From Brumimicrobium oceani (GTDB taxonomy: Bacteria; Bacteroidota; Bacteroidia; Flavobacteriales_D; Crocinitomicaceae), in contig NZ_QFRJ01000015.1 in the NCBI RefSeq assembly GCF_003143775.1, positions 1 to 64,000 of the forward strand: 64,000 nt of DNA. The letters run 5' to 3'. The notes under the pieces were generated by a model. The model searched no databases and was not told where the DNA came from. It saw only the letters and a list, made by a program, of their open reading frames with translations. Made by a program: the position numbers and the translations under genes. Shown here one piece after another: positions 5,001-16,722 of the stretch. Position 1 is the stretch's first letter. Every line of letters starts with the position of its first letter.

Positions 5001-6551
5001 ATTGGTTCGAGTGGTGTGTTTTTCTATTTTTCTAATATTGGAATTCAAGAATTTGACTCTGATAATAACCTGTTCTTTGGCGATACATCCATGTTTAGTA
5101 ATAGCCTAACTTACAGTAGTTGGAAATCTCAACACAATAAAGATCTGAATTCTTATTATGGTAATCCAATTTATACCAGTACAACAGACTTGCATAGCAA
5201 TTCTTTTTTAGCGGATAGCAACGGAATGGTTCTGCCTGAAGTAAATTTAGATATAGATGGACAAGCACGAAATATAACACATCCTGATATTGGCGCTGAT
5301 GAATTTGATACTGATTGGTCTACAATTTTTGACCTATCCGCAGACAGTTTGCTTAATCCGAGCAATTATAATTGCACAGATAATGACTCAATTTTATTTG
5401 TCTTTTCAAATAATTATACGGACACTGTTACAAGTGCCATTATAACTTGGAGTGTAAACGGTGTGCTTCCAAATATTTATAATTGGAATGATGTACTCGC
5501 ACCAGGACTAAGTGATACTGTTTTTCTAGGATTAGGAAATTTTGTTCCGAATACGGACTACTTAATTACTATTAATATTTCTGAGCCCAATGGAATTGAG
5601 GATGCTTATTTTGTCAATAACACCATAGCTATATCTTATAAGGGCTACGTACAACCTGAAATTAGTTTAGCTCAAAATTTTATTTGTGATGGAGATGAGC
5701 TAACGTTGTCTTCAACCTTCTCAGACTCAACCTATAGCTATGCATGGTCAAGTGGCGCTATAAATGATTCCATAATTATAAATACCGGAGGAACATACTG
5801 GTTAGAAACCATTAATTCGTTTGGATGTATGGAGAGTGATACAGTAGTAATTACTGGATACCCAACACCATCAACTGTTTCAATTTTGGCCTCTGATACT
5901 GTTTTTTGTAGTGATGATTTTGTTACCCTAACTGCGGATCCTATTATTGCAGGTAATATTCATACATGGAATTGGAACTGGCCTGGTGGAAACCCAACGA
6001 GTATAACCGTGAATGATGATGCCGAAGTTATTCTCACCACTGAGGATCAGAACGGATGCTTACAGTTTGATACCATCCAAGTGTCTATGGTTCAGGTACC
6101 ATATACTAATATTTGGAGAAGTGGCGTAAACATTTATTGTGATAATGTCCCGTCTGGTTCTACATTTCAATGGTATTTAAACGGAGCTTTAATTCCGGGG
6201 GCAATAGGTCAATTTTATACTCCAGTTGTTAATGGAGTATATGCGCTCGAAGTAACCAACGGAATCTGTTCGTTTACAACAAATGATCATTACTACTACA
6301 CTTTAGGTTCGACGGATTTAGAAATCAATGAAATTTCATTAGCACCTAACCCTGCAACTACTGAAATCAGAATCTATAATTTATTTTCAAAATACAGTTA
6401 TGCGATTTATGATGCAACAGGAAGAGTGCTTATAGAAAGAAAGGACATTTTAAACACTACAATTCCACTTGCCGATTTATCGAAAGGTGTTTATGTAATT
6501 GAATTAATGGTAAATGATCAATTGGTCATTAAGAGCTTTGTGAAGAAGTGA
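2061..6551 (+). CDS. Giant secreted beta-helix/CARDB protein with T9SS sorting domain
   Basis: The 1496-residue protein begins with a signal peptide (hydrophobic residues about 5-25). Two architectural units repeat: a CARDB-like domain (about 70-165, 600-690 and again 1090-1190) followed by a long right-handed parallel beta-helix rich in NN.I/NS.. turns (about 170-590 and 690-1080). Shorter Ig/PKD-like domains follow near 1190-1400. The last roughly 70 residues (SLAPNPATTEIRIYN... to the terminal KSFVKK) form a type A T9SS C-terminal sorting domain. The protein should be exported by Sec, then moved through T9SS and anchored on or released from the cell surface. Beta-helix proteins of this kind are adhesins or polysaccharide-binding or cleaving proteins; no catalytic motif was identified. 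It ends 55 bp before the CRISPR array. Confidence 0.85.
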   Translation: MKLNLITFKIFLFTVVFLSNTCLHANEDLFSIEGGYISNEMTDEKASSEYILNSNQNFPDDAAITAIGAINLDSCLVSEDITVDLLNNGTTNLTSCWIHFEANGVLIQSLYWTGSLIPGETLNNVFISTFNDFYPTVDITVWSELPNGTVDMNTSNDSLNVHLFPNKLKGTYTVGGANPNFNSLSDAFNQLDTSGVCGDVILNIRNGLYYETISIDSILASNMNYRVTVQSESQNPQMVTIDSVDIVCSSTHNVEFNNLTFKNGSIDFTEGSKNLIFDQNVFDSAFVNIYNATDNLFSDSVMISNNIFNGGSIKAHSLQGVNAVSNHFMVKGNEFYDSYGISVEINNYKNIEISHNRLQSHSAFSPVAISVFYQSDSLSIDNNIITKSTAGHTMVIESAVVNDDVAVKIFNNSIHQIVHNVNYLNSSIDISNLQKLEFMHNTVFLSTVNNSPNSQALLLLSGVDSAFIKNNMLINDGEKLIYKLNNNIHFDCDFNNYWNDHNFATVTYGGSTLWTATLAEFSLIYSIDNNSTFIKPYFASSDFLYPMNALSMDNLGTPISYIDTDILNSSRDLNTPDVGAYEFFQLQHDIALENPSWIDTAICAGGSVNLIFDAFNNGSEQIDSFTVYVDIENQALDTIIVYQNIAPQQTISFNLGSYTFTNLITDVNISIALPNGYYDSIPMNNNFSGRFHTKLDGIYTVGDTTADFVSINDALISLNRGICGPVTFKLKDGTHTDWGNIGPVEGNSPTNSITFESESLNSSLVIANHTSSSNLITFRNVESLSLRHISFNTRINLDSVNLVSVDTCEFNGGGIYGSINPNFVDSLSVIGSSFNNSAIDFWSDVNNVKILKNSFSGTSKISFAAFNTASPHPTNILISENELDINNSNPSIHANIYMQSCENFEISNNKLSGNVRSIRIKACDIGVNNVIKNNFISSSYLPFELSASNGLKIYNNSIYSNSISMEYNTNVEFKNNIFQKIGSSGVFFYFSNIGIQEFDSDNNLFFGDTSMFSNSLTYSSWKSQHNKDLNSYYGNPIYTSTTDLHSNSFLADSNGMVLPEVNLDIDGQARNITHPDIGADEFDTDWSTIFDLSADSLLNPSNYNCTDNDSILFVFSNNYTDTVTSAIITWSVNGVLPNIYNWNDVLAPGLSDTVFLGLGNFVPNTDYLITINISEPNGIEDAYFVNNTIAISYKGYVQPEISLAQNFICDGDELTLSSTFSDSTYSYAWSSGAINDSIIINTGGTYWLETINSFGCMESDTVVITGYPTPSTVSILASDTVFCSDDFVTLTADPIIAGNIHTWNWNWPGGNPTSITVNDDAEVILTTEDQNGCLQFDTIQVSMVQVPYTNIWRSGVNIYCDNVPSGSTFQWYLNGALIPGAIGQFYTPVVNGVYALEVTNGICSFTTNDHYYYTLGSTDLEINEISLAPNPATTEIRIYNLFSKYSYAIYDATGRVLIERKDILNTTIPLADLSKGVYVIELMVNDQLVIKSFVKK

Positions 6552-6606
6552 GTGAAGAGGTAGATACATGATAATTATTGATTTGAAATTGATTTTCCCC
6601 AAGCAG

Positions 6607-6658
6607 GTTGTGAAAATATTTTAAATTGATACTTTTATGTGATGATTCGATTCACAGT
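6607..6658 (+). repeat. Degenerate terminal CRISPR repeat
   Basis: This copy has five substitutions in repeat positions 9-16 and a 5-nt duplication (GATTC) near its 3' end, giving 52 nt. Positions 1-8 and 17-40 are intact. The damaged part is the tracrRNA-pairing half, while the promoter-like boxes and their spacing are kept. Being degenerate, it most likely marks the old, leader-distal end of the array. Confidence 0.85.
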
Positions 6659-6687
6659 GGTTTACTTGCTTGCCCTGCTACTTGTAC

Positions 6688-6718
6688 GTTGTGAATTGAA
6701 TTCAAATTGATACTTTTA
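6688..6718 (+). promoter_or_regulatory. Promoter-like boxes inside every CRISPR repeat (example: repeat 2)
   Basis: Within each repeat, GTTG (positions 1-4) and TACTTTTA (positions 24-31) are separated by 19 nt. This resembles the Bacteroidota promoter TTTG-N19-TAnnTTTG with one mismatch in each box, and the spacing equals that of the tracrRNA promoter at 16580-16610. Transcription would start near repeat position 36, about 10 nt before the spacer. Type II-C arrays of Neisseria and Campylobacter are known to use repeat-embedded promoters; applying this here is inference. Confidence 0.55.
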
Positions 6719-9700
6719 TGTGATGATTCACAGTCATCTGAGTAAACCATCACGCCCTCGCCTAGTTGTGAATTGAATTCAAATTGATACTTTTATGTGA
6801 TGATTCACAGTAATCATCTCTTTCCTTATCAATTTCCTCCTGTTGTGAATTGAATTCAAATTGATACTTTTATGTGATGATTCACAGTTAATAATTTAGG
6901 AACCTCAATGAGTTCTAAGTTGTGAATTGAATTCAAATTGATACTTTTATGTGATGATTCACAGTGGGAACTCCCGACATGTTCGCAGATATTAAGTTGT
7001 GAATTGAATTCAAATTGATACTTTTATGTGATGATTCACAGTTCAGGCAACGTAATTGTTGCCGTATCTGCCGTTGTGAATTGAATTCAAATTGATACTT
7101 TTATGTGATGATTCACAGTTTACAATCTACACCTACATCTGTCTGAATAGTTGTGAATTGAATTCAAATTGATACTTTTATGTGATGATTCACAGTGGAC
7201 GAGAGTAGGCGATCTGACAATCGTATGTTGTGAATTGAATTCAAATTGATACTTTTATGTGATGATTCACAGTTGATTTGACTTCGGGATTATTGTTTTT
7301 CTTGTTGTGAATTGAATTCAAATTGATACTTTTATGTGATGATTCACAGTGTTGAATTGGTTACGGTTGACGATATGCAGGTTGTGAATTGAATTCAAAT
7401 TGATACTTTTATGTGATGATTCACAGTGATAAAAGACTTTTTCTATTCACTACCAAAGTTGTGAATTGAATTCAAATTGATACTTTTATGTGATGATTCA
7501 CAGTTCACGTGGAACTAATAAACCTTTTTTATAAGTTGTGAATTGAATTCAAATTGATACTTTTATGTGATGATTCACAGTCTAAACGAGTGTTGTCTCT
7601 TTCAAATTCCTGTTGTGAATTGAATTCAAATTGATACTTTTATGTGATGATTCACAGTCCTATCAGGTTCTTGTATAGCGAGCCGTCAGTTGTGAATTGA
7701 ATTCAAATTGATACTTTTATGTGATGATTCACAGTAAAAGTTAAATCTATAAGAATAGGCTATGGGTTGTGAATTGAATTCAAATTGATACTTTTATGTG
7801 ATGATTCACAGTTCTGCTAATTCGGAAATACTCATGTTTCGCGTTGTGAATTGAATTCAAATTGATACTTTTATGTGATGATTCACAGTAGTCTTTCTCA
7901 AAAACCTCTTCAAGTTCCTGTTGTGAATTGAATTCAAATTGATACTTTTATGTGATGATTCACAGTTTTTGCTTTTCCTGTGCGACCCGTGTTTTTGTTG
8001 TGAATTGAATTCAAATTGATACTTTTATGTGATGATTCACAGTTCTACAATAACTTTCAACTTCACTAGTTGGGTTGTGAATTGAATTCAAATTGATACT
8101 TTTATGTGATGATTCACAGTAAGACAACAAATTTAGCAAAAACACTTTTTGTTGTGAATTGAATTCAAATTGATACTTTTATGTGATGATTCACAGTAAC
8201 GGAATCAAAATAATATACCAAACATGAGTTGTGAATTGAATTCAAATTGATACTTTTATGTGATGATTCACAGTATAAATCTTATTTCTTAAATCCTTTA
8301 AAAGTTGTGAATTGAATTCAAATTGATACTTTTATGTGATGATTCACAGTGATGTTAGATGTGGATTCATTCACTTTGGTGTTGTGAATTGAATTCAAAT
8401 TGATACTTTTATGTGATGATTCACAGTATAGTAATTTTTCGGAAGGACTTAACTCCTGTTGTGAATTGAATTCAAATTGATACTTTTATGTGATGATTCA
8501 CAGAATCAAAACAATACTTTCCTTCATTGGAAGTGTTGTGAATTGAATTCAAATTGATACTTTTATGTGATGATTCACAGATTAGACTTCTCTATTTTGC
8601 CTATTGGAGTTGTTGTGAATTGAATTCAAATTGATACTTTTATGTGATGATTCACAGAGAGCTTGTCAAAATTGGATTTGGTGGAATTGTTGTGAATTGA
8701 ATTCAAATTGATACTTTTATGTGATGATTCACAGAAAAAGAAGAAGTTTCCGTGAGAAGATACCTGTTGTGAATTGAATTCAAATTGATACTTTTATGTG
8801 ATGATTCACAGATCAGACTTTCGCCAAAAAACCATACCGAAAGTTGTGAATTGAATTCAAATTGATACTTTTATGTGATGATTCACAGAATTCCCAGTTG
8901 AACTCACAAACCAAATATCGTTGTGAATTGAATTCAAATTGATACTTTTATGTGATGATTCACAGACGACCTTCAGCATTTATCTTCTATTATAGCGTTG
9001 TGAATTGAATTCAAATTGATACTTTTATGTGATGATTCACAGATGGTATAATGTGAGTATAAAAATACCTAATGTTGTGAATTGAATTCAAATTGATACT
9101 TTTATGTGATGATTCACAGAATCTATCACGGTTATTCGTTACCTTCTCTTGTTGTGAATTGAATTCAAATTGATACTTTTATGTGATGATTCACAGAAGC
9201 TATAATAATTTATTGCCCACTATGTGGGTTGTGAATTGAATTCAAATTGATACTTTTATGTGATGATTCACAGAGTAACAATAAAGCGGTCATTCTTAAT
9301 GATGGTTGTGAATTGAATTCAAATTGATACTTTTATGTGATGATTCACAGATAACCAAAATACCAGCACTCCCATTTTTTGTTGTGAATTGAATTCAAAT
9401 TGATACTTTTATGTGATGATTCACAGATGTTTGGCGTTCCGCAAATTCTTTCTTTGGGTTGTGAATTGAATTCAAATTGATACTTTTATGTGATGATTCA
9501 CAGATATCCTAATAGTAGAATGCACCGGCTTAAGGTTGTGAATTGAATTCAAATTGATACTTTTATGTGATGATTCACAGATGGAATGGTTCAAACGATT
9601 TATAACAGACTGTTGTGAATTGAATTCAAATTGATACTTTTATGTGATGATTCACAGAACGTTTCAACGCTACCAAGTCATCATAAGTGTTGTGAATTGA

Positions 9701-9734
9701 ATTCAAATTGATACTTTTATGTGATGATTCACAG

Positions 9735-9771
9735 AAGACCGCTCTGAAAAGGGTGGTCTTTCTGCGTTTTA
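9735..9771 (+). terminator. Terminator abutting the last CRISPR repeat
   Basis: AAGACCGCTC (9735-9744) pairs with GGGTGGTCTT around the loop TGAAAA, giving a 10-bp stem with two G-T pairs, followed by TCTGCGTTTT. It would end crRNA transcription on the plus strand immediately after the last repeat and keep array transcripts out of cas1. Confidence 0.75.
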
Positions 9772-9938
9772 GCCACTTTTTAGGATGAAAATTTCTACTC
9801 TTTTTGATTAGTAGATTCCTTTAAAAGTATCGGTTTTTGGTTTCTATTTTAATCGTTTGTTAACATACTCAATTTAAAAGATTGTAACCTTATCGAATTT
9901 ATTACGTAGTAAAAGGTTGTCAATCAATACTTAGACTT
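9761..9938. other. Probable leader and cas1 promoter region
   Basis: This AT-rich gap separates the array terminator from cas1. It should hold the leader, because the leader-distal end is marked by the degenerate repeat at 6607, and the cas1-cas2 promoter. A short inverted repeat TCTACT...AGTAGA lies near 9794-9815. I could not identify an unambiguous TTTG/TAnnTTTG pair. Confidence 0.5.
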
Positions 9939-10829
9939 ATGATTAAAAGAACTTTGTTTTTCGAAAATCCTGCTTATTTGAGTACAAAGAATAACCAACT
10001 CGTTGTTAAGCTTACGCAAAGCAATGAAACCAGAACTGTGCCTATAGAGGATATTGGAATGATGGTACTAGAAAATCAACAAATCACATTTACCAATGGT
10101 TTAATCGAAAAGTTGACTTATCAAAATGCCGCAATTGTTTGTTGTAATCAGCAACATTTGCCTTTAAGTTTGATTTCTCCATTAAGCGGACACTCTGAAT
10201 ATAATGAGCGGTTGAGATTTCAATTAGAAGCTACTCTTCCTTTAAAGAAATACTTATGGCAGCAAACCATTGTTTCAAAAATTACAAATCAAGCTAACTT
10301 GTTGGGACTTTTAGGTAAGCAAAATGATAAATTGAGAAAATGGTCCAAGGAGGTTTTATCTGGTGACACAACAAATAAAGAAAGTCATTCGGCTGCTTTT
10401 TATTGGGATCGGATATTTGATATTCCTGGTTTTTATCGTGGTCAGAAGGAAATTGCACCCAATAATTTATTGAATTATGGTTACGCTATTTTGAGAGCGG
10501 TTTGTGCAAGATCTTTAATTGGAAGTGGAATGCTACCCGCTTTAGGGATACATCATGCCAATAAGTATAACGCCTATTGTTTAGCAGATGATATTATGGA
10601 GCCTTATCGACCTTTTGTGGATGAAGTGGTTTATGCAATAGTTCAAGATAATGATGATATTGAAGAACTCACAAGTCATATTAAACAGCAGCTTTTGATA
10701 ATTCCTGCAATAGATGTAACTATTGATGGCAAGAGGAGTCCATTAATGGTAGCCATGAGCAGAACAACACATTCTTTATATGAGTGTTTTGCTGGGATTT
10801 CTAGAAAAATTTTATACCCAACATTATGA
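9939..10829 (+). CDS. cas1: Cas1, CRISPR adaptation integrase (type II)
   Basis: The product is 296 residues, the normal size for type II Cas1. The N-terminal beta domain (1-80) is followed by the alpha-helical catalytic domain. The metal-binding triad is visible as Glu148 (in TNKESHSAAFYW), His205 (in LGIHHANKYN) and Glu221 (in DDIMEPYRPF). With Cas2 it captures protospacers and inserts them at the leader-proximal repeat. It is the first gene of a cas1-cas2 operon that starts about 200 bp after the array, in the same direction. The stop overlaps the cas2 start (ATGA at 10826-10829). No csn2 or cas4 is present in the window, which points to subtype II-C. Confidence 0.97.
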   Translation: MIKRTLFFENPAYLSTKNNQLVVKLTQSNETRTVPIEDIGMMVLENQQITFTNGLIEKLTYQNAAIVCCNQQHLPLSLISPLSGHSEYNERLRFQLEATLPLKKYLWQQTIVSKITNQANLLGLLGKQNDKLRKWSKEVLSGDTTNKESHSAAFYWDRIFDIPGFYRGQKEIAPNNLLNYGYAILRAVCARSLIGSGMLPALGIHHANKYNAYCLADDIMEPYRPFVDEVVYAIVQDNDDIEELTSHIKQQLLIIPAIDVTIDGKRSPLMVAMSRTTHSLYECFAGISRKILYPTL

Positions 10830-11176
10830 GTGAAAATCAATTTTTAACCCGACTTAATCAATACAGAACTATGTGGATCCTTGTATTTTTTGATTTACCG
10901 ACAGAAACAAAATTGGAACGAAAGGCAGCTGGTAAGTTCCGAAAATCATTATTAACTGATGGTTTTACAATGTTTCAATTTTCCATTTATTTACGTTTTT
11001 GTGCGAGCAGGGAAAATGCAGATGTACATACCAAACGAGTAAAACTCCTACTTCCCAAAAAAGGGAAAATAGGAATTTTACAGGTCACCGATCGTCAGTT
11101 TGGTATGATGGAATTATTCCATGGCGTTAAAGAAGTGGAGAAGGAGACTCCACATCAACAATTGGAGTTGTTTTAA
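10826..11176 (+). CDS. cas2: Cas2, CRISPR adaptation subunit
   Basis: The product is 116 residues with the ferredoxin-like first strand MWILVFFDLPTET carrying Asp23, the conserved acidic residue of Cas2. It forms the dimeric core of the Cas1-Cas2 integrase. Translation is probably coupled to cas1 through the 4-bp ATGA overlap. Its stop codon TAA (11174-11176) directly abuts the stop codon of the convergent cas9 gene (11177-11179 on the minus strand), leaving no intergenic base and no separate terminator. Confidence 0.96.
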   Translation: MSENQFLTRLNQYRTMWILVFFDLPTETKLERKAAGKFRKSLLTDGFTMFQFSIYLRFCASRENADVHTKRVKLLLPKKGKIGILQVTDRQFGMMELFHGVKEVEKETPHQQLELF

Positions 11177-14100
11177 TTAAGCTTTAGAAATATTTCCTAG
11201 TCTATCAACTTTTAATTTCCAACAAATCTTTTTTATTTGAGTCACACCGTCTATCATGTTTTGGTTTTTATTTTGTTGACTTCCAAGTCCAAACTCATTT
11301 TGAATCAGTTCTTTTTCAGCAATATTTATTTTGTTCTTATCATTTAATTCTTTAAATATTTCTTTGTTCTTTTTTCCGTGAAACCTCCAAATTGGCTTCG
11401 AAATAGCATAGGGAACGAAGTTTGCAATACTTATACTACCATCAACATATTTATAAATCCTATTTACTTGTTCTTTTGTTAGGTTTTTAAAATCCACTTC
11501 ATTTAAGTTATTGATTTCCTTATTTGTTGGGACATAAACTAAGTCTAATGGTGAGAGTGTAAATATTCTCTGAAATTCATTTAGTCTGTCATCAAAAATT
11601 TTATTGGGTAAAGGATTAATGCGATTGTTTTTATCTTGCTTTAATGATTCGATTAAATCCATCAATCCAATATCTTTAAATTTTCTTTCTGTCGTTTCAT
11701 TTCCTTCATGATTTATATAAGTTCTTTCATAGAAACCAAGGTAGAGATTAGAGCCTGCGTCATTCACTACATACTGTTTTGATTTAACAGATTCTCCATC
11801 ATCACCATTTATAGCTCTTTGATTCCCAAAGCCTCTAGAAATTCGTACTTTTTTTATAGGTTTATGACTCTTACCATTGTTTAGCCTTTGAAGTTCACTG
11901 GGCTTATTCATTTCTTCGATTAGTTCATTTGTAAAAGCAATTTCAGGATGCTCCGTTATTTTTCTGTCATTTCGATTTTTGAATACGTCCTCAGATAATT
12001 CATTAATAAAGATATTTAACATTTCATATTTAACTTTTTTATAAGTAAATTGATTATTTCTTAGATGTACAATAAAATCTTGAGTGGATTGAAACTCATT
12101 TTCTTCATCTTTTACAATAGCTTCAAATTCTTGTTTTTTCAAAAGAAAATCAAAGTAATTGATTGCTTCTTCAAATTGAAGTTCAACAGTATTATACTCT
12201 TTTAAATGATTCAATAATATTTTCTGGATTCCTATATCGGTAATAGTTCTTATTTTTGCACTATTAAATGAAATATCCAAATCTTTTCGGATTACTATTT
12301 TTTCTTCTCCACTTAATAATTTCTTCCCATAAAATGAATCTTTCCCTAAACTTCTCCGAATGGACCAATTTTTCTTTTGTCCATTTTCAGTGTTTTGTTT
12401 TATAAACTTGTTCTTACTAGATGTATTATTATACCAGTTTGTGGTATTGTTAATAACCCTAAGATTTTGCTTGAAGGTCACAATAGTTCCTTGTAATGCT
12501 GTTAGGATCATTTTTTTGTAATCAAAATCAAAAGAATCATGCATTTTATATATATACGTTTTCTCTAAGACTGAATCTCTTCGAGAATTTTCAACTCCTA
12601 ATTTACGAGTTTCGCCAGGAAGCATATAATACCAATTGTTTTCATCTTTAGCATCATCTCTTTTTATGAACTTTATCTTTCGTTTTAATGTTTGTCTGTA
12701 TTTTTCAATTTTCTTTTGAGTTCCGTAATCTTCCGATTTAGCTTTAGCATTAATGTTATTGATATAATTAACATGGTCCTCTGTACATAAGGCGACAATT
12801 AGTGCATCTAGCGCATGATGTCTATGATCGATCCGTTTAATGTCATAAGAATCATCTTTTTCACGAATGCTATCATCTAAATTACAATCAAAATATCTGT
12901 GTCCTGATTTGGATGTTTGCCATTCACCAAACAAGTTTGATTTTGTTAGTTCATTCATTCTAATAAAACGTGGTGATACAAGTTCTCCCCATACTTCGTT
13001 AAGTTTCCAAGCTCGCTTAAGTTCTGAAGTAACTCTACCAGTAACAGGTAATAAATTCTTAGAACGGAACTCAACTTCCCCCGGTTCTCTTACAATATGA
13101 CTTAATAACTCCATCGCTTTTCGAGATATATGTTGAGTATTATTCATTTGACTGTTTGTAAAGCCTTTTGGAATTTCTTTAGAAAGTAGAATATATCTTT
13201 TTGTTCCAGAGAATTGAGTGTTTACGATGTTTAAGTATTCATCTTCGGAACAAACAGGAGTGCCTAAATAAGATTGACCATTTTGATTTTGAATAAATTC
13301 TCGTCCAGTCCTATCACTTTTTAAATTATTTAAACTATTTTCTACTACAACCTTATTACTTAAAGAATTGTTTGTGATGGAAGCTTGAGGGAATATATGG
13401 TCGATGTTGAATTTGTTTCCATCAAATAGTTCTGTGATTTTTATCATTTGTCCCGAATATGGAGAACGGTACCCTTGTTCTATCCAAAGTTTATATTTTT
13501 CAAAATCTGATTTGTTTATATACTGTTTTTTTAGGATATCTTCAATTTCTTTCTTGTTATATGACTTGTCTTTAAAGAAATCTTTGTTCGTGTTTTTAGT
13601 GTGTTCAGCACTTTCTTCTACAATTTTTAATCGTTCGAAATGGTCTTTATTATTAGGGTTCGCATTATATGTGTTGTTCTTTAAAAACTCTTCTAAAACT
13701 TGACGAATTCTTTTGTTCTGCTTACGATTATCAGACATGCGATTAGAATCGCTCTCTTTTTCTTTGATTGATTTTTTCAGTTCTCTGCCAACCTCTAAAT
13801 GAATTTTTGAGAAAAAGCTTTCCTTTCCTTTTCCATAATAATCCCATATATCTGCGACAACTTGCATCATCTCCAATATTACTTTTTCTGCCACAGGATT
13901 ATTTAGAGAGTGTTGTTTTAGTTCTTGATGTAACTCTTTTCTAATTTGATCAGGAGAGAACCAATATTTTGCTTGAGCTAATTCTGAATGTCGTCCGTAA
14001 ATTAGATATGAAGCTTGCGTAAGATTAAGTTTTTTAAAGTCTTCTATTTGTTCAAAATCTTTAAATGTATTGAATAGTCCTTTTGGAAAAGGGAGTTCAC

Positions 14101-16519
14101 CTTGTTGTATGTCAATACTTGTATTTATTACTTTAGAAAAGTCAGATTTTTCTTCATTGAAATCAACCATATTAAGTTTCTCTAATATCTCCTTTTTTCT
14201 TTTATAAAGCTTTTCGTTCCATTTCGTATACCAAGGTTCCTTTTCCCATTTGTCTATTTGGTTCTGTTTCCCTAATCTGATTAGAGGTAATATCTTCTTT
14301 AAAGCCTTTTCTGAATAAGAGCAATATTTTGACGCAAATTTCGGGAAATTTACAAAATCACTGATAATTTTCTCTCTAACTTCGTCTGTAGTATCACTAT
14401 TTTCTAAAAATCGATTAAAAAAGGTTTTTGCACTTTTGTTTGCGTCCGCTGTTTTTTCTTTGTAGCTCACTGAATATAAATAATGCCATAAATCAACTTC
14501 TTTCTCCTGAGTAAGGAATTCAGTATGATCTTTAAAACCACATCTTATAAAACGAGTTGCAAAACTAACTTTTGTTTCGTTGCCCTTTATTTCGTCGTCT
14601 TCAGGGAAATTCCATGTGTAATTACTATCCTTTTTCTTGTAATCGAGATTAAAAGATTTTTTACAAAACGAGAGTAGCTGATCTTGGTTTAAAGATTTTC
14701 GATTATTTAATTCATCAAAAAGCATTTGATATTCCTTTTCACTTTTTAAATATTCTTTGGTTATATCCTGATTAGTCAATTTTTTTCCATTAACTTCTTT
14801 CTCTAGTTGGATAAGTTTTAGGTTGTGGAGTTTATCCCATATTCTAAATTCCTGAAAATAGGGATGAGTAGCAGAAACTACTTTATTGTAAATAGGTTCT
14901 TTTTTAGTTTTAATCTCACCTGTTTTAATATCAACCTCTTCAATTAGATTACCCTTTTTGTCTTCAGCGTTTTTCCAGTATCGTATTTCATAATTGCAGT
15001 TTGAAATTTCAGATTTTTTGCTTTTTAAAGGTCTTTGATATAGCAAAATATCTTCTACTAATAGCTGTTGTATGGCATTTTTATTTTTAAGTAAAGTGTT
15101 TTGATGATTTTTGTTTTTTGGATATAGAGTCTTGACGCACTGTTCAAAAACTTTTTTGTCTTCTAATTTATTATGAAATTGTTTTTGCGTAGTGATAATC
15201 TGCTTTAGTTCTTCTCGGTAAAAGTTTCTGTCAACCACTTGAAACATTCCTCCAATTATTTTAGTTCTTTCACCTGTCCTAGCATCACTTTTTAAAATGT
15301 TATAGATACTCGGGGAAATATAATTCTTTGCACTGCCATCCTCTTTCTTATAACCTTGGTTTATATTAAATGTTAACGCCTCTTTTTCTGTTTTCTTTTT
15401 AAGTAAAGTCCAATCGCTTGAATTGTCGCTTAAATCTGGTTCTCGTAATTTTCTGTCTTTTTTTAATTGTGGTTTAACTTGTCCTTTATTGTTATAGACT
15501 GTTTCAATGATATAATCAAATGGTTTATATAGTACATTTTTATATTTAAAAGTAAAGTTTTTAGGTTGTTTTATTTCCTTCCAACCATTCTGATAGGTAA
15601 GTGTGTATTTATGCTTCCCATCATCTTTTTCATACTTAACATTCTCTATTTGTAAAGAGTAAATATCAATAATTGTAAATTCTGTTTTCTTATCCTCTAT
15701 AACGCCCTTCGAATTAACTTTAGACGTTTTTATCAATTCCTTCAAATCACCTTTAAATGTCATTTGAACATCAGAAAATTCATTGTAAATAAAACTGTCA
15801 TTACCTTCTAGGTGAACTTCAAAAAAGGTTTTACCTTCTTTATCAGTTTTTGGAATAACTTCTTTTACACTTAAATCTAACTCCTCTATTATTTCGTTAT
15901 CTTTTGTTGATTTATCTTCAACTTCTGTTTTTTCATATCCTCTTTTTTGATTATAACTTAAAAGAACCCATGAAAGCTCTTCCAAATTAACTTTTTTAGA
16001 GAGTGCTTTTTGTCTCAGATAGTATAATGTCCAGTCATATGGAATTCGTTTCCCTTTTATATTTTCAACTTCGTCGTCATTAATTTCTTCTAACATTTCT
16101 TTATAAGAATCCATGAAGAGGAATGATGCTTTTTTACCTTCTTGTTTGGGGAGATAAGCTAATTTCGGCTCTTTGTTTTTGTGAAATTTCCCAGATTTAT
16201 TTCCGTTATCACTTTTGAAGTCAATTTCAAGCTTGTAATGTTTAGGTAGTGTGTCTATTAAATTAAGAACTATATGTAGCCTATCTCTTCTCAATAAGTA
16301 TCTTTCGTTTAGTCTTCTAGGTCCTCGCTGCTCAGTTCTTTGGGCAGCAGTGCTTTTTATTTTGCTTCCACTTTCAAAATCTTTTATTTCTCCGGCATCC
16401 ATTGGAATTATTCTTGATCCTATACCAACTATTTTGACTGTACCATTTTCATGGTCAATTTCAACCAAAGCCCATCCAATACTGTTGGTTCCTAAGTCTA
16501 ATCCTAATACTCTTTTCAT
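11177..16519 (-). CDS. cas9: Cas9 endonuclease, unusually large (1780 aa)
   Basis: RNA-guided DNA endonuclease. RuvC-I is at the N-terminus (LGLDLGTNSIGWAL, Asp8). The Arg-rich bridge helix spans about 58-90 (STAAQRTEQRGPRRLNERY). RuvC-II contains IHLEVGREL with Glu909. The HNH domain contains NIDHIFPQAS with His1041 and downstream Asn/Lys residues. RuvC-III contains DHRHHALDAL with His1235 and Asp1238. All catalytic residues are intact. About 820 residues lie between bridge helix and RuvC-II, and about 540 follow RuvC-III, so both the recognition lobe and the PAM-interacting end are enlarged. It is larger than the Cas9 proteins I know (about 950-1690 aa). The orientation opposite to cas1-cas2 is not the usual cas9-cas1-cas2 operon. 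No frameshift or fused foreign domain was recognised. The PAM cannot be inferred here. Confidence 0.97.
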   Translation of the reverse strand: MKRVLGLDLGTNSIGWALVEIDHENGTVKIVGIGSRIIPMDAGEIKDFESGSKIKSTAAQRTEQRGPRRLNERYLLRRDRLHIVLNLIDTLPKHYKLEIDFKSDNGNKSGKFHKNKEPKLAYLPKQEGKKASFLFMDSYKEMLEEINDDEVENIKGKRIPYDWTLYYLRQKALSKKVNLEELSWVLLSYNQKRGYEKTEVEDKSTKDNEIIEELDLSVKEVIPKTDKEGKTFFEVHLEGNDSFIYNEFSDVQMTFKGDLKELIKTSKVNSKGVIEDKKTEFTIIDIYSLQIENVKYEKDDGKHKYTLTYQNGWKEIKQPKNFTFKYKNVLYKPFDYIIETVYNNKGQVKPQLKKDRKLREPDLSDNSSDWTLLKKKTEKEALTFNINQGYKKEDGSAKNYISPSIYNILKSDARTGERTKIIGGMFQVVDRNFYREELKQIITTQKQFHNKLEDKKVFEQCVKTLYPKNKNHQNTLLKNKNAIQQLLVEDILLYQRPLKSKKSEISNCNYEIRYWKNAEDKKGNLIEEVDIKTGEIKTKKEPIYNKVVSATHPYFQEFRIWDKLHNLKLIQLEKEVNGKKLTNQDITKEYLKSEKEYQMLFDELNNRKSLNQDQLLSFCKKSFNLDYKKKDSNYTWNFPEDDEIKGNETKVSFATRFIRCGFKDHTEFLTQEKEVDLWHYLYSVSYKEKTADANKSAKTFFNRFLENSDTTDEVREKIISDFVNFPKFASKYCSYSEKALKKILPLIRLGKQNQIDKWEKEPWYTKWNEKLYKRKKEILEKLNMVDFNEEKSDFSKVINTSIDIQQGELPFPKGLFNTFKDFEQIEDFKKLNLTQASYLIYGRHSELAQAKYWFSPDQIRKELHQELKQHSLNNPVAEKVILEMMQVVADIWDYYGKGKESFFSKIHLEVGRELKKSIKEKESDSNRMSDNRKQNKRIRQVLEEFLKNNTYNANPNNKDHFERLKIVEESAEHTKNTNKDFFKDKSYNKKEIEDILKKQYINKSDFEKYKLWIEQGYRSPYSGQMIKITELFDGNKFNIDHIFPQASITNNSLSNKVVVENSLNNLKSDRTGREFIQNQNGQSYLGTPVCSEDEYLNIVNTQFSGTKRYILLSKEIPKGFTNSQMNNTQHISRKAMELLSHIVREPGEVEFRSKNLLPVTGRVTSELKRAWKLNEVWGELVSPRFIRMNELTKSNLFGEWQTSKSGHRYFDCNLDDSIREKDDSYDIKRIDHRHHALDALIVALCTEDHVNYINNINAKAKSEDYGTQKKIEKYRQTLKRKIKFIKRDDAKDENNWYYMLPGETRKLGVENSRRDSVLEKTYIYKMHDSFDFDYKKMILTALQGTIVTFKQNLRVINNTTNWYNNTSSKNKFIKQNTENGQKKNWSIRRSLGKDSFYGKKLLSGEEKIVIRKDLDISFNSAKIRTITDIGIQKILLNHLKEYNTVELQFEEAINYFDFLLKKQEFEAIVKDEENEFQSTQDFIVHLRNNQFTYKKVKYEMLNIFINELSEDVFKNRNDRKITEHPEIAFTNELIEEMNKPSELQRLNNGKSHKPIKKVRISRGFGNQRAINGDDGESVKSKQYVVNDAGSNLYLGFYERTYINHEGNETTERKFKDIGLMDLIESLKQDKNNRINPLPNKIFDDRLNEFQRIFTLSPLDLVYVPTNKEINNLNEVDFKNLTKEQVNRIYKYVDGSISIANFVPYAISKPIWRFHGKKNKEIFKELNDKNKINIAEKELIQNEFGLGSQQNKNQNMIDGVTQIKKICWKLKVDRLGNISKA

Positions 16520-16579: not shown

Positions 16580-16610
16580 TTTGGATTTCGCGGATATATA
16601 GTTATATTTG
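16580..16610 (+). promoter_or_regulatory. tracrRNA promoter, exact Bacteroidota consensus
   Basis: TTTG (16580-16583), 19 nt, then TATATTTG (16603-16610) fits TTTG-N19-TAnnTTTG without mismatch. A start about five to seven bases downstream coincides with the first base of the anti-repeat. Confidence 0.85.
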
Positions 16611-16614
16611 AATC

Positions 16615-16698
16615 ATCAATTTGAAATCAATTCACAATAAGGATTATTCCGTTGTGAAAACATTTAAGCTGCCTCGACTTTCTTCGGGGCATTTTTTT
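16615..16698 (+). ncRNA. tracrRNA
   Basis: The anti-repeat ATCAATTTGAAATCAATTCACAA-type segment (16615-16637, 23 nt) is complementary to repeat positions 2-24 with one mismatch. AATAAGG...CCG follows (16636-16651), the nexus motif I recall from type II-C tracrRNAs. A terminator hairpin comes next: TGCCTCGA (16670-16677) pairs with TCGGGGCA (16684-16691), with seven T (16692-16698). Promoter, anti-repeat, nexus and terminator together define an RNA of about 84 nt. It is transcribed divergently from cas9 and would pair with pre-crRNA to form the guide loaded into Cas9. Confidence 0.92.
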
Positions 16699-16722
16699 GC
16701 TCTAAACTTTACCATCGATCCC

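Follow-up and report, generated by a model that had tools for sequence, protein, structure and literature searches.

Candidate Bacteroidota-type promoters in the repeats of a type II-C CRISPR array from Brumimicrobium oceani

A promoter recognised by sigma-ABfr/SigA, the primary sigma factor of the Bacteroidota, probably lies in each repeat of the type II-C CRISPR array of Brumimicrobium oceani, a reading to which we give a probability of about 0.7 on the sequence evidence. The array lies within a window of 64,000 nucleotides, the whole stretch of DNA analysed here. The candidate -7 box, TACTTTTA, occupies repeat positions 24–31, just beyond the stretch paired with the tracrRNA, and TTG at positions 2–4, 19 nt upstream of the box, may act as a -33 element. 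The box is reported to lie at -12 to -5 in F. psychrophilum (PMC9723704), which would put the RNA start near position 36 of the repeat, some 11 nt ahead of the spacer. The transcript would traverse the spacer and the next repeat, where pairing with the tracrRNA would allow RNase III to cut it. A hairpin after the last repeat would halt any run-on transcripts, and the array would be transcribed toward its leader without any leader promoter. Each stored virus sequence can probably be read out separately. The sequences show the boxes and their spacing, their recurrence and sliding across the Bacteroidota, the polarity of the array, the pairing of the anti-repeat and the terminator-like hairpin; sigma binding, the start site and processing are inferred.

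Repeat starts span 6607–9689, mostly at intervals of 77 nt (n = 41), and 40 of the 41 repeats are identical over 46 nt (GTTGTGAATTGAATTCAAATTGATACTTTTATGTGATGATTCACAG). The first repeat (6607) is altered in the half that pairs with the tracrRNA, at positions 9, 10, 11, 13 and 16, and has 4 nt inserted close to its 3′ end; its GTTG at 1–4 and TACTTTTA at 24–31 are intact. The genes cas1, cas2 and cas9 are adjacent with no csn2, cas4 or other gene between them (9939–16519) and the anti-repeat at 16615–16637 pairs with repeat positions 2–24, both of which identify the system as type II-C. Because this anti-repeat belongs to a tracrRNA on the + strand, the crRNA sense is also + (Table 1). The Cas9 profile matches the 1,780-aa protein best from residue 969, which corresponds to profile position 523, and the N-terminal part of the protein is unusually long. 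The hairpin at 9734–9761 is the only terminator-like site within 6400–9950, and is a possible 3′ end of array transcripts, a possible leader palindrome, or both. Among the leaders of relatives, 36 of 154 have a strong hairpin (z below -2) less than 60 nt from the last repeat (for example at loci L059, L046 and L078).

Table 1 Features of the CRISPR locus, in window coordinates
Feature	Position	Strand	Remarks
Type II-C CRISPR array	6607–9735	+	41 repeats of 46 nt; spacers about 30 nt; crRNA sense +
Degenerate first repeat, leader-distal	6607–6656	+	Both promoter-like boxes retained
TTG, candidate -33 element	6689–6691	+	Repeat positions 2–4 in every copy; coordinates of the first intact repeat
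TACTTTTA, candidate -7 box	6711–6718	+	Repeat positions 24–31 in every copy; coordinates of the first intact repeat; last copy 9712–9719
Predicted transcription start	6723	+	Position 36 of the repeat in every unit; 11 nt ahead of the spacer
Hairpin	9734–9761	+	Immediately 3′ of the last repeat; z -2.7
Leader, spacer-acquisition end	9735–9938	+	Adjoins cas1; degenerate repeat at the opposite end; base-47 A fills the leader-side half
cas1 (type II)	9939–10829	+	TIGR03639, E 6e-88
cas2	10826–11176	+	TIGR01573
cas9, 1,780 aa	11177–16519	-	TIGR01865, E 8.5e-80; bridge helix, HNH, RuvC-III
tracrRNA promoter, TTTG-N19-TATATTTG	16580–16610	+	TTTG 16580–16583, 19 nt, TATATTTG 16603–16610
tracrRNA	16615–16700	+	Anti-repeat, nexus hairpin, terminator; fold z -3.9

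The arrangement TTG-N19-TACTTTTA is present in 41 of 41 repeats, the degenerate first copy included. This confirms an earlier note on this DNA, which had placed GTTG at positions 1–4 and the box at 24–31, 19 nt apart, and had equated this spacing with that of the tracrRNA promoter at 16580–16610; both are indeed N19, which is also the commonest spacing among the tracrRNA promoters of relatives. Searching the 64-kb window for TTG-N19-TAnnTTTR returns 44 sites, comprising the 41 repeats, the tracrRNA promoter and 2 others. The repeat box agrees with TAnnTTTG at 5 of 6 positions, the final consensus G being A here. In the organism's own genome, which encodes two sigma-70-family proteins of 290–291 aa, no gapped 6-mer upstream of codirectional genes is more sense-enriched than TAnnTTTG (54 sense versus 23 antisense). 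For TAnnTTTA, the form taken by the box here, the same genome shows no clear enrichment upstream of genes (65 sense versus 56 antisense), and a sigma-70 promoter scan of the array finds sites to be rarer than chance. A single repeat is not significant, as shuffles of positions 19–46 match equally well in 4.6% of cases at N19 and in 17% at N18–21. The 41 copies are not independent of each other, and significance is taken from relatives instead of from this array.

We gathered type II Cas1 loci from a phylum sample, a class sample, named genomes and plasmids. About 160 arrays were readable, and their long repeats (44–48 nt) form 58 clusters at 85% identity. A box matching at least 5 of 6 positions of TAnnTTTG, with TTG at N18–22, is found in 48 of these 58 clusters; shuffles give 6.9 (at most 14) and the reverse strand gives 8. 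Exact TAnnTTTG boxes occur in 21 clusters against 0.5 expected; the repeats share ancestry, so that shuffle tests overstate their independence and favour the claim, which the clustering at 85% identity corrects in part. Among 4,096 gapped templates TAnnTTTG ranks first in the Bacteroidota II-C repeats, and the spacing between TTG and box peaks at 19 (26 clusters versus about 1.5 expected). Comparison thus gives good support to the core of the earlier note's interpretation, a Bacteroidota-type promoter in each repeat; the box of the B. oceani array itself has the weaker TTTA form.

Across relatives, conservation is high at the ends of the repeat and over its first 17 nt, and low column by column in its middle. 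Within this variable middle the box slides from position 23 to 28 across the long repeats while its spacing from TTG stays the same. Some repeats contain a second register, with TTG at 9–11, a box at 31–32 and a spacing of N19–20. The P. intermedia repeat printed in PMC5608340 has, in crRNA sense, TATCTTTG at 24–31. Short repeats show a related pattern: in 9 of 18 Bacteroidota clusters the repeat closes with nAnnTT and has TTG exactly 19 nt before it, where 0.7 would be expected. The box of these short repeats may run on into the spacer; the spacers that follow them show no bias to the initial TG that would complete it.

The same box accompanies the tracrRNA genes of the surveyed loci. A box of at least 5 of 6 matches precedes the tracrRNA in 93 of 97 loci, a raw count without a chance level that takes the best of about 65 positions, and these boxes lie mostly 2–5 nt before the anti-repeat. 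The corresponding TTG spacings are 19 (22 loci), 20 (15), 18 (7), 21 (6) and 22 (1). They come from a scan of the tracrRNA at each locus, as TTG spacing in pooled upstream regions is possibly inflated by tracrRNA promoters and was set aside.

Outside the phylum, TAnnTTTG is absent from the six II-C repeats compared, which come from Bacillota, Bdellovibrionota, Pseudomonadota and Fusobacteriota and all lie on plasmids. These repeats end in TATAAT, TACAAT (two), TAGACT, TAGGTT and TATGCT, of which only TATAAT and both TACAAT ends are close to the -10 consensus. TTG at positions 2–4 belongs to a GTTGTG-like repeat end that is also present in II-C repeats outside the Bacteroidota and is for that reason no separate Bacteroidota signal.

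The direction in which these arrays grow and are transcribed can be read from their terminal repeats. Among the 121 arrays whose 5′ end is readable, 57 have a degenerate repeat there, compared with 2 of 153 at the 3′ end; L153 and L206, the sole arrays scored as having a mismatched 3′-terminal repeat, may be detection artefacts. Base 47 of the B. oceani units directly follows the 46-nt repeat. It is T in the 24 older units; newer ones, nearer cas1, have A, and this repeat variant marks the direction of growth. A degenerate repeat at the 5′ end together with the base-47 variant indicates that new units enter at the 3′ end, and the position of the degenerate repeats at the crRNA 5′ end that transcription runs toward the leader. 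Judged from the degenerate repeat, the base-47 variant and the anti-repeat, array transcription is predicted to run to this variable end. As the leader then lies downstream of transcription, the array promoter cannot sit in it.

Terminal repeats also bear on the two boxes. Among degenerate long terminal repeats, 41 of 48 have lost TTG at positions 2–4, and mutation affects 1.0% of the box compared with 54% of positions 1–8. The 3′ part, which contains the box, is unaltered in nearly all of them. We considered the intact box as proof of selection for a promoter and rejected this, as a deletion through recombination with an inner repeat would refresh the near side even in the absence of selection. 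Because recombination could explain the intact box and TTG 2–4 is mostly lost, terminal repeats are used here for polarity only. Lost TTGs of long terminal repeats are not regained above chance (5 of 34 versus 4.0 expected). Whether TTG is needed as a -33 element is doubtful, and a dispensable -33 element agrees with the reported absence of a -33 motif in F. johnsoniae (cited in PMC7366714).

The repeat boxes might be inactive if a promoter upstream of 6607, reading toward the leader, produced a single long precursor that tracrRNA and RNase III cut at each repeat. The suboptimal box of this array would fit such a scheme, and the intact anti-repeat pairing with positions 2–24 would make a long precursor processable. 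We nevertheless regard it as unlikely: TTG-N19-TAnnTTTR is absent from 6400–6607 outside the repeats, a 3-kb untranslated transcript would be required, and neither the retention of TAnnTTTG throughout the phylum nor its sliding at constant spacing would be explained.

Somewhat less probable still is that the box is kept for another job, such as recognition by Cas1–Cas2, an RNA or DNA hairpin or tracrRNA pairing, its likeness to a promoter being accidental or inherited. Repeats are homologous and their conserved ends and first 17 nt are maintained for reasons of this kind, and some Flavobacteriaceae repeats look palindromic around the box by eye. Against this, anti-repeat pairing stops at or just beyond the start of the box, the motif floats within a repeat middle of low column-wise conservation, the repeat of this array folds no better than shuffles (z -0.4), and both motif and spacing match those of tracrRNA promoters. 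Chance resemblance within an AT-rich repeat, to which the single-repeat probability of 4.6–17% lends some credit, is very improbable given the 48 of 58 clusters against 6.9 expected and the position and spacing common to relatives. A sigma-factor promoter in each repeat is thus the best reading of the array.

Neisseria meningitidis type II-C arrays with repeat-embedded promoters were reportedly described by Zhang et al. in 2013. The II-C systems of N. meningitidis and Campylobacter jejuni share with the present one the genes cas9, cas1 and cas2, a promoter-like box in each repeat and a separate tracrRNA with its own promoter. In Campylobacter, where repeat-borne promoters have been shown, the repeats end in GGTAAAAT and starts have been mapped (Dugar et al. 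2013, PMC3656092). In the Neisseria and Campylobacter arrays the -10 box (in Campylobacter GGTAAAAT) stands at the very end of a short repeat and transcription begins within the spacer, unlike in B. oceani, where a TAnnTTTG-type -7 box lies at positions 24–31 of 46 and the predicted start comes about 11 nt before the spacer. The likeness to these arrays drawn by the earlier note thus extends to a promoter-like box in each repeat; the location of the box inside the repeat and a predicted start ahead of the spacer set the B. oceani array apart. In Clostridium cellulolyticum, whose II-C array is transcribed opposite to the cas genes, internal repeat promoters have been suggested; the extended -10 box at the repeat 3′ end there is not the Bacteroidota box (PMC7038990).

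Transcription toward the variable end has been ascribed to II-C arrays (PMC8092290). Within the Bacteroidota, a repeat promoter has been suggested in F. columnare from TTG and eight RNA-seq reads of the array (PMC8092290) and in F. psychrophilum from TTG (PMC10309648); these proposals resemble ours in having a repeat-encoded promoter and transcription toward the variable end, with weak RNA-seq support. They name TTG 33–35 bp before the spacer and, in the available text of the two papers, include no -7 box, spacing argument or phylum survey. In Riemerella anatipestifer, a Flavobacteriaceae relative whose 47-nt repeat also begins GTTG (compared here by its description), repeat promoters have been reported absent and the leader considered instead, an analysis that used a fruit-fly promoter predictor not built for TAnnTTTG (PMC5006608). 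We found no Bacteroidota transcription start site (TSS) map covering a II-C array in the literature: in the text available, the B. thetaiotaomicron TSS map includes no CRISPR, and the main text of the F. psychrophilum TSS paper (PMC9723704) does not mention CRISPR. Repeat-borne promoters in II-C systems are known, and their suggestion for Flavobacterium named TTG only. Judged from the open-licence literature, the -7 box inside the repeat and the phylum-wide pattern appear to be new, and an earlier description may exist.

If our reading is correct, crRNA synthesis from one promoter per repeat, known from a few model II-C systems, would hold for an entire phylum that uses another promoter code, which would explain how Bacteroidota II-C arrays are transcribed toward the leader and would bring the reported absence of repeat promoters in one such array into question. 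It yields a simple rule for array direction and start sites open to checking against existing TSS data, and such arrays would be expected to drive their own expression in Bacteroides-type hosts and not in E. coli. A more tentative idea, which we consider possible and on balance doubtful, is that the II-C repeat of Bacteroidota takes its architecture from the promoter code of the host, with two 19-nt registers (TTG 2–4 with the inner box, and TTG 9–11 with a box located at the end of the repeat or beyond it), and that the roughly 10 extra bases of 46–48-nt repeats serve to house a complete -7 box and start site. Arrays of this kind would be silent under ordinary sigma-70, and the repeat itself would restrict the range of phyla able to use a II-C array acquired by transfer.

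Some Bacteroidota repeats have no good box, notably a 36-nt type in one genus (family f6, genus g8). These repeats, of the type GTTGTGGTTTGATTAAAGATTAGAAAACACGATATT (for example at L051 and L085), contain no TAnnTTTG, yet their tracrRNA promoters often have TAnnTTTG. At the other extreme of length, locus L098 of genome G533, from the same family as the window, has 25 copies of a 57-nt II-C repeat, the longest in the set.
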